NCBI GenBank assembly: GCA_012927585.1 | Contig: JABBOY010000022.1 | Location: forward strand, 124,001-188,000 | Reading direction: 5' to 3' | Length of the DNA stretch: 64,000 nucleotides | Origin: Glaciimonas sp. | GTDB taxonomy: Bacteria; Pseudomonadota; Gammaproteobacteria; Burkholderiales; Burkholderiaceae_D | Shown: positions 5,504 through 24,572 of the stretch, one piece after another | How positions within the stretch are numbered: the first letter of the stretch is position 1 | Layout of the letters: every line of letters starts with the position of its first letter | Made by a program: the position numbers and the translations under genes | Notes under the pieces: model-generated | Seen by the model: the letters and a program-made list of their open reading frames with translations, nothing else | Told to the model about the DNA's origin: nothing | Database searches by the model: none

Positions 5504-5638
5504 TCAGTACGTATTAAGCTAGTAAGCCAGGACGCGCCAGACAGACCGTCGGCGATTGCGCCGATGACTTGTCGGTGACTTCGCCGGTGGGTTGAGTACC
5601 GGCGCAATACATGAATAAAACTACGCAGACCCACTCCA

Positions 5639-7402
5639 ATGGCATCTTTTTCGCTCCACGGCTTTCCGGTTTCCCGCGGCATTGCCGTGGGCCGCGCCCA
5701 CTTGCTCACGCCCGCTGCGCTGGACGTAAAACATTATCTGGTCGGCCAGACCCAGGTGGAAGCCGAAGTACGGCGTCTGCAAAACGCGTTTGCCGTGGTG
5801 CACCAGGAACTGCGCACTATTTGGGAAGAACTGCCGGCGGACGCGCCGGCCGAGCTGGGCGCGTTCATCGATATCCATATTCTGATCCTGTCCGACCCGA
5901 TGCTGGCGGAAGCACCGCTGGATATCATCCGCAGCCGCCACTACAACGCCGAATGGGCGCTGGTGACCCAAATCGACGAGTTGATCGACCAGTTCAACGA
6001 GATTGAAGACCCCTATTTGCGCGACCGCAAAGCCGATATCTGGCAAGTCGCAGAGCGCGTATTGAAAGTATTGACCGGCACCGCCCAGATATTGCCGGCG
6101 CCGGGCGATGGCGACGAAGCGCAGGCCCGCCTGATCGTGGTCGCACATGACATTTCGCCGGCCGACATGCTGCAGTTTCGCAATCACGCCTTCAGCGGCA
6201 TCGTCACCGATGTCGGTGGGCAGAATTCGCATACGGCGCTGGTGGCCCGTAGTCTGGACATTCCGGCCGCAGTCGGCCTGTCGAATGCCTCGCTGCTCAT
6301 TAGGCAGGATGACTGGCTGATCATCGATGGTACTACCGGCGTGGTCATGGTCAATCCGAGCCAGATGATGCTGGATCAGTACCGCGACACGCAGGCCAAA
6401 ATCCAGCGCGAACGTAAAAAACTCAGCAAACTCAAGAAAACTCCGACCGTCACTCTCGACGGCACTGTCGTTACGTTATTGGCCAACATCGAACTGCCGG
6501 AAGATTGTGCGGGAGCGATGGAGGTCGGCGCCAGCGGCATCGGCCTGTTCCGCTCCGAGTTTTTGTTCATGGGGCATAGCGGCCACGCCAGCACGCTGCC
6601 ATCGGAAGAACAACAATTCGATGCCTACCGGCGCGCTGTAGGCGCAATGAAGGGCCGGCCGGTAACGATACGCACGCTCGATATCGGAGCTGACAAACGA
6701 TTGGCCGGCTTCGAGCAGAGCGCGATCAATCCGGCGCTGGGCCTGCGCGCGATTCGCTATTGCATGGCCGAGCCGCAACTGTTCCTGACCCAGTTGCGCG
6801 CGATCCTGCGCGCCTCCGCTTTTGGCCCGGTCAAATTGCTCATTCCAATGCTATCGCACAGTTTCGAGGTGACCCAGACCCTGTCCATGATCAACCAGGC
6901 CAAAGCGCAACTAATCAAGGCCGGCCAGAAATTCGATGCCGATCTCCAGATCGGCGCCATGATCGAAGTGCCGGCGGCAGCGCTGACGCTGCCGACGTTC
7001 ATCCGGCACCTGGATTTCCTGTCGATTGGCACCAACGACCTGATCCAGTACACGCTGGCGATCGACCGCTCGGACCACGAGGTGGCTCATCTGTATGACC
7101 CGATGCATCCCGCCGTGCTAATGCTGCTGGCAATGACGGTGGCGGCAGCCGCCAAGGCTAACATCCCGGTCTCGATTTGCGGCGGCATGGCGGGCGACGC
7201 CAAGCTGACCCTGCTGCTGTTGGGCATGGGTTTTCGTGAATTGTCGATGCCGGCGGCGCAACTGCTGTCGGTCAAGCAGGAAGTGCTGGGCTGCGATCTG
7301 GAGCGCGTCACGCCGCTGGTCAGAAAAATTCTGCGCAGCGACGACCCCGCGGCCATCAAGCAGATGATTAGCCAGCTGGCCGATGCGACAGCCGTCGTTT
7401 GA
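5639..7402 (+). CDS. ptsI: PTS phosphoenolpyruvate-protein phosphotransferase (Enzyme I)
   Basis: GGQNSHTALVARSLDIPAAVG active-site His motif; DFLSIGTNDLIQYTLAIDR; 587 aa. Confidence 0.96.
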   Translation: MASFSLHGFPVSRGIAVGRAHLLTPAALDVKHYLVGQTQVEAEVRRLQNAFAVVHQELRTIWEELPADAPAELGAFIDIHILILSDPMLAEAPLDIIRSRHYNAEWALVTQIDELIDQFNEIEDPYLRDRKADIWQVAERVLKVLTGTAQILPAPGDGDEAQARLIVVAHDISPADMLQFRNHAFSGIVTDVGGQNSHTALVARSLDIPAAVGLSNASLLIRQDDWLIIDGTTGVVMVNPSQMMLDQYRDTQAKIQRERKKLSKLKKTPTVTLDGTVVTLLANIELPEDCAGAMEVGASGIGLFRSEFLFMGHSGHASTLPSEEQQFDAYRRAVGAMKGRPVTIRTLDIGADKRLAGFEQSAINPALGLRAIRYCMAEPQLFLTQLRAILRASAFGPVKLLIPMLSHSFEVTQTLSMINQAKAQLIKAGQKFDADLQIGAMIEVPAAALTLPTFIRHLDFLSIGTNDLIQYTLAIDRSDHEVAHLYDPMHPAVLMLLAMTVAAAAKANIPVSICGGMAGDAKLTLLLLGMGFRELSMPAAQLLSVKQEVLGCDLERVTPLVRKILRSDDPAAIKQMISQLADATAVV

Positions 7403-19609: not shown

Positions 19610-20032
19610 ATGGAAATCAGCGACTTGCTGCGGCACCGGATAATTAAAAGTCGCATGGCGCAGCACACTGAAAAGGCTGAGGAGGTCGCGATTGACTTAT
19701 GGGCGCAGATGGCGGTGCAAATCATTTCGATCGTCGGTGAAGGTGGTTTCAATTCCCTGTACGCCAGAAGCGTATTCCTTACCCAGTCCGCCTTTCCCTG
19801 GCTCGCGGTCGGCGCAGTGTCGGCACAAACCGATCGCCAGTTCCTGGAACTAAAAACAAGTCTTGAGGGACAAACATCGGCAGAAGCCAGCGCAGCAAAC
19901 TGTCTGTTGCTGATCACTTTCACCGACATCCTGGCTACGTTAATTGGCGAGCAGTTGACCACCAATATTTTACGTTCGGCTTGGGATATTGATGCTGCAG
20001 ACAGTGCCGGCGAGGAGTTGAGGGATGTATAA
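19610..20032 (+). CDS. Orphan ~140-aa helical protein, first gene of the KaiC-like cassette
   Basis: MEISDLLRHRIIKSRMAQHTEKAEEVAIDLWAQMAVQIISIVGEGGFNSLYARSVFLTQSAFPWLAVG...LLITFTDILATLIGEQLTTNILRSAW; 8-nt overlap with the next gene. No family recognised. Confidence 0.8.
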   Translation: MEISDLLRHRIIKSRMAQHTEKAEEVAIDLWAQMAVQIISIVGEGGFNSLYARSVFLTQSAFPWLAVGAVSAQTDRQFLELKTSLEGQTSAEASAANCLLLITFTDILATLIGEQLTTNILRSAWDIDAADSAGEELRDV

Positions 20033-21485
20033 AAAGGTAACTATCCGCCGCCTGAAAACAGGCGTACCAGGTCTGGACAACCTGTTGGGCGGAGGTCTGC
20101 CGGAATTCTCGTTTAACTTGATTGCGGGTACGCCGGGGAGCGGAAAAACGACGCTCGCACACCAAATCATGTTCTCGCTGGCAAGCCCGAAAAATCGGGC
20201 GCTGTTCTTCACGGTATTAGGCGAACCCGTTTTGAAGATGCTGCGTTATCAACAGCAGTTTCCGTTTTTTGACATCAAGAAAGTCAACCAATCGGTGCGC
20301 TACGTCAACCTGTCGGCAGACCTGCTGGAAGGGAATTTTGCGCGTGTATTGTCGCGCATTGCCGAAGAAGTGAAAGACTATGCTCCCAGCCTGATATTTG
20401 TCGATTCGTTCCGGTCCGTCGTGCAATCAGCGAAACGGGAGGATCAGGGCGCGTCCGAACTGCAACAGTTCGTGCAACAACTGGGCATGCAACTGACGAG
20501 TTGGCAAGCGACCACATTTTTAATCGGCGAATATGGAATGCCGGAATCAGAGTCAAGCCCGGTCTTTACCGTGGCCGACGGCATTCTGTGGCTTTCGCAA
20601 AATTTGCACTGCAATTCAATGGTGCGCAAGATGCAAGTGGTCAAAATGCGCGGTCAAGCGCAAGCGCCCGGTTTGCATACGTTCCGTATTAGCGATACGG
20701 GGATTCAGGTTTTCCCGCGCGCGATTATCCAGCAGGGCACAGCGATGGGGTCTGCAGTCAAGTCATCCACTGGAGAACAACGCGTTTCGATGGGAATATC
20801 AGGCCTGGATAAGATGCTGGGCGGCGGTTTGCCAGTAGGATATTCGTTACTCGTGGTGGGGCCTTCCGGCTCTGGAAAAACCATATTGGCGACCGAATTT
20901 CTGGCCGAAGGGGTGCGCCGGGGCGAACCCGGTGTAATTGCAGCATTCGAGAAGAGCCCCAGCCAACTGCTGAACAATAAGCTCAACGCGCTGGTCAAGG
21001 CGGGACAAGTTGGCGTAATCGACACGCATTCTCTGGATTTATCCATTGATGAAACCTTGTACGATCTGATCGAAATGATGCATCGCATGCAAGCAAAGCG
21101 CATCGTGATTGACTCCTTGTCGGGGTTTGAGCTGGCACTGGCGCCGGAATTTAGCGAGGATTTTCGCGGATCGCTATACCGGATGATTGCCGAACTGACA
21201 GGCATGGGAGTGACCGTATTAATGATTGCAGAACTGGAAGACCGCTACACCGATTTGCGCTTTAGTCCCTATGGCAGCGCCTTTCTGGCCGACGCCATCA
21301 TCGTGCAGCGGTATATCGAAATCGTGGGCCAATTCAAACGCGTCCTGTCGGTGGTCAAAGTTCGTGGCAGTGAGCACAGTAAGGACATCCGATTGTTTGA
21401 CATTACCGACGATGGCATCATTATTGGCGATACGTTATCCGAGTACGCCGGAATCATGACAGGCCGGCCGATGGTCAGCCCGTAG
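20025..21485 (+). CDS. KaiC-like double RecA-domain ATPase (no adjacent kaiB)
   Basis: Two P-loops (AGTPGSGKTTLAHQ and VGPSGSGKTILATE); LFVDSFRS- and IVIDSLSGFEL-type Walker B; C-terminal DAIIVQRYIEIVGQFKRVLSVVKVRGSEHSKDIRLFDITDDGI. Confidence 0.9.
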   Translation: MYKKVTIRRLKTGVPGLDNLLGGGLPEFSFNLIAGTPGSGKTTLAHQIMFSLASPKNRALFFTVLGEPVLKMLRYQQQFPFFDIKKVNQSVRYVNLSADLLEGNFARVLSRIAEEVKDYAPSLIFVDSFRSVVQSAKREDQGASELQQFVQQLGMQLTSWQATTFLIGEYGMPESESSPVFTVADGILWLSQNLHCNSMVRKMQVVKMRGQAQAPGLHTFRISDTGIQVFPRAIIQQGTAMGSAVKSSTGEQRVSMGISGLDKMLGGGLPVGYSLLVVGPSGSGKTILATEFLAEGVRRGEPGVIAAFEKSPSQLLNNKLNALVKAGQVGVIDTHSLDLSIDETLYDLIEMMHRMQAKRIVIDSLSGFELALAPEFSEDFRGSLYRMIAELTGMGVTVLMIAELEDRYTDLRFSPYGSAFLADAIIVQRYIEIVGQFKRVLSVVKVRGSEHSKDIRLFDITDDGIIIGDTLSEYAGIMTGRPMVSP

Positions 21486-21520
21486 CCAAACAGACTTGTA
21501 AATTGTAAGGGAGGGAGGCA

Positions 21521-23200
21521 ATGAGAAAAAAACACCCTAGTGACGTTTTGAGTACCGATGACGCAGGTCAACCGGATGTCTTGAGCCAACACAAAGACAG
21601 GTTGTCAACCGTCTTGAAAAAAAATATCACGCGCAGGAAAGACGTTGTCATTAAGGATGCAGCGGCGGTTTTAAAGCGCGAAAAATCGGCCATTGTCCGA
21701 GAGCGTGCCACGCATTTTGGCGAAGGGAAAGCCATCACGCGCGGGCAGGAGATTAGTGCGACAGAGACGATACAGATGACGTCCGACGAGCGCATGGTCA
21801 TGCTGCAGCAAGCGAATGCACATCTGGTCATCGCTATTATCGAAGCACACAAACTGGCTGAACAAATTGAGATAGCTAAAACGCAGCTGGATCATTTGGC
21901 CCATCACGATGCTCTTACCGATTTGCCGAATCGCATGCTACTGCAAGATCGGCTGAAACAGGCCATTGAATTGGCCCATCGTCAGGGCAAGCAACTTGCG
22001 GTGATGTTTCTGGATCTGGACCGATTTAAACATATCAACGACTCGCTGGGGCATGCCGTTGGCGACCAACTGCTGCAGGGAGTGGCACAACGCTTAATCG
22101 GTTGCTTGCGTCACTCGGACACCGTGAGCCGCCAGGGTGGCGATGAATTCGTGTTGCTGCTTTCCAATATCGAGCATGCTGAAGACGCTGCGCTGTCTGC
22201 CCAAAAACTGCTGGCGGCGATTGCGCTGCCATACAGCATCGACCGCCACGATCTCCATATCAGCGCCAGCATTGGCATCAGCATCTACCCCGACGATGGA
22301 CAAAATGCGGAAGCCCTGATCAAGAATGCGGACATCGCGATGTACCATGCCAAGCAAAACGGGCGCAATAATTACAAATTCTTCGAGCCCGACATGAATG
22401 CCCGGGCGGTTCAGCGCCAATCGATCGAAATCGGTCTGCGCCACGCTTTGGCCCGAAAAGAATTTGTGTTGCACTACCAGCCGAAAATAAATCTTCATAG
22501 CGGCAGAATAGTCGGGGTCGAGGCGCTCATCCGCTGGCAGCATCCGAAACGTGGGCTGCTGCTGCCAGCGCAGTTCGTGCCGATTGCCGAAGACTGTGGA
22601 CTGATGCTGCCGATTGGCCGCTGGGTGCTGCGCGAAGCCTGTCTTCAGGCTCGCGCCTGGCAGCAGGCTGGTCTGGCGCCGATCACCGTTGCAGTCAACA
22701 TCTCCGCGCTTGAGTTCCGCGCCAAGGATTTTCTCGAAAATGTACGCACGACGCTTGAGGATACGGGGCTGGAGCCGCGTTTTCTGGAACTGGAACTGAC
22801 CGAAAACGTCCTCATGCGAGATGTCGAGACTACCGATTCCGTTTTAAATACGCTCGCAGACCTGGGTGTAAAGCTTGCGATTGATGACTTCGGCACCGGC
22901 TATTTCAGCCTCAGTTATCTACGGCGATTCCCGATCAATACCCTGAAGATCGACCAGTCGTTCGTGAACCAGATAAGCAACAACCCGGATGATGCCACCG
23001 TCGTCAGTGCCTTGATCGGCATGGGTAAAAGCCTCAAGCAACGCGTCCTTGCCGAGGGCGTGGAAACACCAGAGCAGCATGCATTTCTAATGGCCCAGCA
23101 TTGCGACGAGGGTCAGGGCCACTATTTCAGTCGGCCGGCGGTGCCAACTGCGCTCGCCACCTTACTGCAGACCGGCGTATCATTTGCCCGTCCCAATTGA
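21521..23200 (+). CDS. GGDEF-EAL dual-domain c-di-GMP protein with N-terminal coiled-coil
   Basis: [14 protein letters not shown] (GGDEF); [11 protein letters not shown] (EAL), [29 protein letters not shown]; strong RBS (gggagg). Confidence 0.94.
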
Positions 23201-23231
23201 TCGCTCATCATCTGCCGACTGGAGATATCGC

Positions 23232-24572
23232 ATGCGCCATCCTTTCACTTTGCGCCCGATTGTTCGCCTCGCCTTGGCCTACCTGTTAACGCTGAATCTT
23301 GTTGCCTGTGGCGAAGTGGCAACATTGCCGGATCAGGCAGATTTCGGCCCCCATCCGACATTGCCGCCGCCGAATCCCACTCTCATACCTACCGTCAATA
23401 TAGCCCCGGCCAAAGGTTGGCCGGCAGGGGCGACGCCGACGCCTGCCGCTGGTTTGGCGGTGAGCGCCTTTGCGACCGGTCTCGACCACCCGCGCTGGCT
23501 GTATGTGCTCCCCAACGGCGATGTATTGGTGGCCGAAACCAATGCTCCGCCCAAGCCAGAAGATGGCAAAGGCATTAAAAACTGGGTCATGAAGCGGGTC
23601 ATGAAGCGCGCCGGGGCCGGCGTATCGAGCGCGGACCGCATCACCTTGTTGCGCGATACCAATGGCGACGGCGTAGCAAAAACGCGCACGGTCTTCCTGC
23701 AGGGCTTGCATTCTCCGTTCGGCATGATGTTGGTCGGCAGCGACCTGTATGTCGCCAATTCCGATGGCTTGGTGCGCTTTCCCTATCGAAGCGGGGCGAC
23801 CCGGATCACCGAGCCGGGTGTCAAAGTGGTTGATTTGCCGGCCGGCCCGATCAACCATCACTGGACCAAAAATGTGATTGCCAACCGCGCCGGTTCGCGT
23901 CTGTATGTAACGGTCGGCTCGAATAGCAATGTTGGCGAAAACGGGGTGGCAAACGAAGTCAACCGCGCCGCCATCTGGGAAATCGATCCGGCAACTGGCA
24001 GTGCGCGCATTTTTGCGTCGGGCTTGCGCAATCCGAATGGCCTTGCCTGGCAACCGCACAGCGGTGCACTCTGGACTACCGTCAACGAACGCGATGAAAT
24101 CGGCAGCGACCTGGTGCCCGACTATATGACATCCGTGAAAGACGGTGCTTTCTACGGCTGGCCTTATAGCTATTACGGCCAGCATGCCGATACCAGAGTG
24201 AAGCCGCCGCGGCCTGACCTGGTGGCAAAAGCGATTGCGCCGGATTATGCGCTGGGTGCGCATACCGCTTCACTCGGGCTTGCCTTCTATGAGGGTAATT
24301 TATTGCCGAAGCACTTTAACGGCGGTGCATTCATCGGACAGCATGGCTCCTGGAACCGGAACCCTCGCAGCGGTTACAAAGTGATTTTTGTGCCGTTCGT
24401 CGATGGAGTCCCAGCCGGCAAACCTGAGAATGTGCTGACCGGATTTGTCAATGCGCAAGGTGATGCGCTGGGCCGTCCGGTTGGCGTGGTAGTCGACCGA
24501 ACGGGCGCACTACTGGTGGCCGATGACGTCGGCAACGTCGTATGGCGAGTAACTCCGGCTATAACGAAATAA
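23232..24572 (+). CDS. Lipoprotein PQQ-dependent sugar (sorbosone-type) dehydrogenase-like beta-propeller
   Basis: Lipobox [27 protein letters not shown]...[27 protein letters not shown]...[13 protein letters not shown]...[23 protein letters not shown]. Confidence 0.85.

Follow-up and report, generated by a model that had tools for sequence, protein, structure and literature searches.

The locus described here lies in a window of 64,000 nucleotides (C25:124001-188000; contig JABBOY010000022.1) of a Glaciimonas sp. genome of 4.17 Mb that is 97.75 % complete. Three co-oriented genes form a compact cassette, with the following features given in window positions:

19610-20032, plus strand: orphan partner gene (140-aa ORF), encoding a predicted all-helical protein of an undescribed family
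20025-20032, plus strand: 8-nt overlap of the orphan stop and the kaiC start (kaiC ATG at 20025-20027, orphan TAA at 20030-20032)
20025-21485, plus strand: gene of a double-domain KaiC-family ATPase (486-aa ORF)
21508-21520, plus strand: ribosome-binding region AAGGGAGGGAGGC, within the 35-bp gap between kaiC and the GGDEF-EAL gene, ahead of the ATG
21521-23200, plus strand: GGDEF-EAL gene (559-aa ORF), the putative output enzyme of the Glaciimonas cassette copy
21773-21895, plus strand: putative transmitter helix of the GGDEF-EAL protein (residues 85-125; profile match at G000:C25:145773-145895)

The reading frames, the overlap, the 35-bp gap and a good ribosome-binding site were all confirmed as they had been given in the initial annotation. 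The overlap of 8 nt suggests translational coupling of the orphan gene and kaiC, and from the spacing we infer that all three genes are carried on one transcript. Since the preceding gene stops 233 nt upstream of the orphan gene, the cassette probably begins its own transcript. A promoter-like match at 21397-21424, inside the 3' end of kaiC, does not stand above chance, as seven such sites were found in the region compared to 5.1 expected. The GGDEF-EAL gene is followed on the plus strand by a gene for a PF07995 sorbosone-dehydrogenase-like protein (23184-24572). With its called TTG start it overlaps the end of the GGDEF-EAL gene by 17 nt; translation more likely begins at an ATG at 23233. In the neighbor clustering, this gene family occurs near only three cassettes (L021, L032 and L044).

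The description of the middle protein as a KaiC-family member with two ATPase domains was borne out, as it matches PF06745 (KaiC) in two stretches (E=6.1e-71) with Walker A kept in both. The NCBIfam equivalogs for circadian KaiC stay below their cut-offs, with 159 bits against 546 for TIGR02655 and 234 against 408 for NF006799. In an alignment to solved KaiC, A419 and F420 stand opposite the phosphosites S431 and T432, and these replacements are found in 81/81 and 80/81 clade members, respectively. The glutamate pair of the CII domain is replaced by E309-K310 in all 81. The C-terminal tail, where KaiA docks, is missing beyond the A-loop region; the aligned part stops at residue 482, opposite residue 494 of a 524-residue chain, and only four residues remain. 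As read from the sequence, the CI loop matching the KaiB-binding loop appears about six residues shorter than in cyanobacterial KaiC. Across the 81 clade sequences, both domains retain their Walker A, Walker B and KxR motifs. Because these motifs are kept and the phosphosites are lost, ATP binding and hydrolysis are likely and clock-type autophosphorylation is unlikely.

Neither KaiB (PF07689) nor KaiA (PF07688) was found, and this holds for the whole genome, with the controls from S. elongatus being detected for both; the absence of both genes beside the KaiC homolog, previously noted for the window, thus extends genome-wide. KaiB is also absent in nine of 11 other carrier genomes checked. 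The remaining KaiC-domain matches of the genome are partial and weak, none is a second double-domain KaiC, and their lengths and scores suggest RadA- and RecA-type proteins. The cassette is not a KaiABC system, as the phosphosites, the tail, KaiA and KaiB are all lacking, and the KaiC clade appears to have left the KaiA/KaiB clock chemistry. A simplified timer or hourglass might nevertheless be considered, in which KaiC and the orphan protein, the latter replacing KaiA and KaiB, would run a slow phosphorylation-free ATPase cycle that times the output. Membership in the KaiC family, the intact ATP-binding motifs of both domains and the hourglass proposed for KaiB-less bacterial KaiC in De Luca et al. 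2011 (PMC3164672) would fit such a timer. However, the phosphosites are lost across the clade, neither KaiA nor KaiB is present, and the carriers are mostly non-phototrophs, so that this explanation is considered quite unlikely.

The orphan protein of 140 amino acids has no match in Pfam or NCBIfam, nor did searching the PDB with a profile return anything credible. It is conserved across 83 non-redundant homologs, which rules out a chance ORF. Its AlphaFold model is all-helical without strands (mean pLDDT 86.7). The fold comparison with Foldseek covered the PDB and viral predicted models (BFVD), and no match was found with an E-value below 1.6 or 1.1, respectively. A KaiB in disguise is ruled out, since KaiB has a thioredoxin-like alpha/beta fold, and the PDB comparison likewise offers no KaiA-like or other known fold. 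The earlier view of a helical, non-KaiB protein of no nameable family therefore agrees with both the predicted fold and the empty searches. A viral origin found no support, as there was no BFVD match. A role in anti-phage defense was also rejected because KaiC matched only ATPase-type entries (best mad8, E=1.2e-12) and the orphan and GGDEF-EAL proteins had no matches.

The relationship between the orphan gene and kaiC was approached from both sides. When 80 loci were picked with KaiC as the sole criterion, nearly all of them had directly upstream an orphan homolog, which usually overlaps kaiC or sits within a few bases of it. In addition, a KaiC search and an orphan profile search were run independently on the same 196 family genomes and then compared. 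The KaiC matches in these genomes fall into two groups, a clade with at least 49 % identity and other KaiCs with about 27-34 %. The orphan is present in 65/65 genomes with a clade KaiC and in 66 genomes in all, and at 75 of its 80 places a clade kaiC follows immediately downstream on the same strand. Both places with a clade KaiC and no orphan (G520:C189 and G019:C45) reach contig ends. Five orphan places are left without a KaiC. One of them has only about 150 bases of contig after the orphan (G520:C436), another has a KaiC fragment alongside (G006:C17), and a third lies downstream of KaiC as the second orphan of one cassette (G460:C32, locus L178). The other two, one in G006 with an internal stop and a weak one in G537, are left unexplained. 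In the phylum sample of 399 genomes, the orphan was found in 4/4 genomes with the clade KaiC and in 0/46 with other KaiCs only, the former scoring at least 524 bits and the latter at most 208.

The pair is also duplicated together: one genome encodes five clade KaiCs, every one of them is preceded by an orphan place, and one of these orphan places contains an internal stop. L178, the cassette with the second orphan, belongs to a genome that carries the clade KaiC in five copies. The distances of orphan and KaiC correlate (r=0.87), as do those of GGDEF-EAL and KaiC (r=0.84), and for orphan and KaiC such correlation and linkage are also expected from co-inheritance in an operon. No fusion of orphan and KaiC was found among the loci examined. 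In three related loci (L025, L030 and L032, each 5580-6016), the orphan frame is broken with KaiC intact. In L025 and L032, the break coincides with a poly-C run within a variable loop, and the N-terminal half of the L030 orphan is unrecognizable. Decay, assembly error or length variation may account for these frames; a programmed frameshift in L025 and L032 is unsupported, the poly-C run being its only indication. On the basis of this co-occurrence, the orphan is an obligate partner of one KaiC clade. The proposal of an obligate, conserved and KaiC-linked small partner thus held in every clade genome of both the family and the phylum sample.

The same regularity does not extend to the output. 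The 559-aa protein of the window contains GGDEF (PF00990) and EAL (PF00563) domains, and with the GGDEF motif at 206-210 and E334 of the EAL domain both invariant in the alignment, it is a candidate enzyme for both activities. No sensory domain was recognized with Pfam in this protein or in the kinases scanned. The neighbors of the orphan-KaiC pair are GGDEF-EAL proteins, hybrid HisKA-HATPase-REC kinases or both, and in some cassettes an output gene is missing next to the pair. Occasional further neighbors are a REC-PAS protein or a Crp-type regulator; the Crp-type family (HTH_Crp_2 in the scanned member) occurs near 12 cassettes and mostly upstream, for example in L036, L053, L079 and L083. 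Since the hybrid histidine kinases are about as frequent beside the pair as GGDEF-EAL, the c-di-GMP enzyme is ruled out as the dedicated output that the initial annotation had taken it for, and a KaiC module with interchangeable outputs is indicated instead. Of the conserved neighborhood expected at that stage, the linkage of the orphan family to KaiC stood, but GGDEF-EAL is only one output among several. On the KaiC tree, parsimony counts 13 changes between the kinase and GGDEF-EAL states, although this was a quick tree with many weak forks and its supported branches alone force only several.

Despite their different catalytic domains, the kinases and GGDEF-EAL proteins share some 40 residues immediately ahead of the catalytic domain, with the motif L-Q-x-A-N-x-x-L-V-I-A-T-x-x-A in 79 of 82 neighboring outputs. 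The AlphaFold model of the GGDEF-EAL protein has one continuous helix here, from residue 88 to 128 and up to the GGDEF domain. A profile of this helix was detected in 63 of the 196 family genomes, 60 of which bear the orphan (Fisher 1.9e-39). As the profile was built from cassette neighbors, its presence beside cassettes (66 of 76 places within 6 kb of the orphan in the family genomes) is expected; its near absence outside cassette genomes is not built into the profile. In the phylum sample, strong matches occur in three genomes only, all with the orphan. The helix went undetected in six genomes that carry the orphan. Conversely, three genomes contain it but neither the orphan nor a clade KaiC; in one of these three, the gene lies close to the beginning of a short contig. 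L174 (G574) and L175 (G024) contain helix-bearing frames with neither KaiC nor orphan within the 8 kb extracted, and these are possibly remnants of a lost cassette.

The position of the helix relative to the catalytic domains is constrained. The distance from the motif Asn to GGDEF is 107 residues in 37/37 proteins, a constancy within one enzyme type that partly reflects common descent. The distance to the His of the kinase H-box is 33 or 47 residues, and the difference of exactly 14, corresponding to two heptads, is based on two kinase types. The length of the segment preceding the motif is variable. As judged from these alignments, the shared helix, which was absent from the initial annotation, would unite two unrelated classes of output enzymes.

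This helix also bears on the explanation that only the first two genes form a functional core, with the orphan as a chaperone or assembly factor of KaiC and the outputs as loose passengers carrying a generic signaling helix. The linkage of orphan and KaiC is indeed stricter than that of either output type, and generic S-helices of similar length precede histidine kinase and GGDEF domains (PMC1592074). In contrast to a generic helix, however, the one found here is nearly confined to cassette genomes and mostly close to the orphan, and the outputs have no other recognized input domain. A mere two-part core is therefore regarded as rather improbable, although it deserves some weight.

The nearest match to the KaiC gene of the window, with 93 % identity, comes from a Glaciimonas assembly. 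In the KaiC tree, its close relative L021 groups with Rhodoferax among Nitrotoga, Methylobacter and Thiobacillus and apart from most KaiCs of Oxalobacteraceae. Two of the three sampled genomes of the same genus lack both the orphan and the clade KaiC. The simplest interpretation is that the cassette was transferred horizontally, with the reservation that several of the relatives are metagenome bins and could be misnamed. One cassette, L064, lies on a contig labeled Myxococcales and hence outside Pseudomonadota, by transfer or misbinning.

Starting from the composition, order and linkage of the cassette, the lost phosphosites and the shared helix, all of which were read from sequences, our preferred reading is a KaiC-type ATPase module without KaiA/KaiB chemistry, in which KaiC and its partner act in trans on the helix of the output enzyme. 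We assign this reading a probability of about 55 %. KaiC would form a hexameric ring whose nucleotide state is set or read by the small orphan partner, and the output dimer would receive this state at its transmitter helix. The helix may then shift the dimer between active states, thereby switching kinase or c-di-GMP output; for the Glaciimonas copy, the output would be synthesis or breakdown of c-di-GMP. Candidate stimuli are the ATP/ADP ratio, redox, light or time. The broader generalization, that a KaiC ring without phosphosites and an adaptor of new fold serve as a general input in trans that is plugged into unrelated outputs through one portable docking helix, is put forward tentatively, at somewhat less than even odds.

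The opposite direction of signaling was also considered. Here, the GGDEF-EAL protein or kinase would control KaiC and the orphan, for instance via c-di-GMP or phosphotransfer, and KaiC would act on a different target, DNA or a secretion motor being examples. KaiC does belong to the RecA/DnaB superfamily, and the REC-PAS or Crp-type neighbors of some cassettes could be accommodated. Nevertheless, no common c-di-GMP receptor was recognized in the orphan or KaiC, and the sole feature common to both enzyme classes is the helix, which is located at the input side of their catalytic domains. Such a reversal is therefore very improbable.

KaiCs of non-cyanobacteria were described years ago, but there is no agreement on what they do. 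A large clade of them now gains a defined composition of KaiC, an obligate partner and a transmitter helix on the output, so that three purified proteins and simple assays of c-di-GMP or kinase activity would allow a direct test of its function. If the preferred reading of an input module acting in trans is true, KaiC ATPases can act as exchangeable input modules that do without clock chemistry, and the partner family together with the helix provides a sequence signature for finding such systems. Altogether, the evidence points to a widespread non-clock KaiC signaling module.

In the cyanobacterial KaiABC-SasA clock, KaiC has two domains and its state is read in trans by output enzymes. The Glaciimonas cassette likewise has a double-domain KaiC-family ATPase, but it lacks KaiA and KaiB, has lost the phosphosites and the tail, and contains an unrelated helical partner. 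By analogy, the output would read KaiC much as SasA does, via a coiled-coil helix in place of the KaiB-like domain of SasA-type outputs.

Within the open-licence literature, the only directly relevant paper found on the arrangement of KaiC with kinases or GGDEF-EAL proteins is that of De Luca et al. (PMC3164672), and no report was found of a constant orphan partner or a common output helix. Its third (black) group, as characterized there, comprises KaiB-less KaiCs with poor phosphosites (an AF profile is listed) that adjoin genes for histidine kinases or GGDEF/EAL proteins in an arrangement termed heterogeneous. Therefore, a KaiB-less KaiC near such genes is not new. A figure legend names 'hypothetical protein' neighbors, and the passages on this group discuss neither a constant partner nor a common output helix. 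Sharing the missing KaiB, the poor phosphosites and the neighbors, the Glaciimonas KaiC most likely belongs to this group, by described features and not by tree position. The KaiC-Nt_HK pair of Ramlibacter, from the second group, also consists of a KaiC followed by a signaling kinase without KaiB. According to the account given there (PMC3164672), the Ramlibacter KaiCs mostly keep phosphorylatable residues and the kinase has a KaiB/SasA-like N-terminus, in both of which the pair differs from the Glaciimonas clade and its outputs. Archaeal KaiC-like ATPases have been described as signaling hubs (Makarova et al. 2017, cited in PMC5847659) and thus resemble the cassette as KaiC-family signaling outside the clock, albeit in archaea. 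The transmitter helix itself is best compared with the S-helix, which also spans about 40 residues ahead of kinase or GGDEF domains and almost always lies between two domains of one protein (PMC1592074). Here, however, no Pfam domain is found on its N-terminal side in the window protein or the scanned kinases, and the helix occurs together with KaiC and the orphan, so that it is apparently an S-helix-like element that would be fed in trans.
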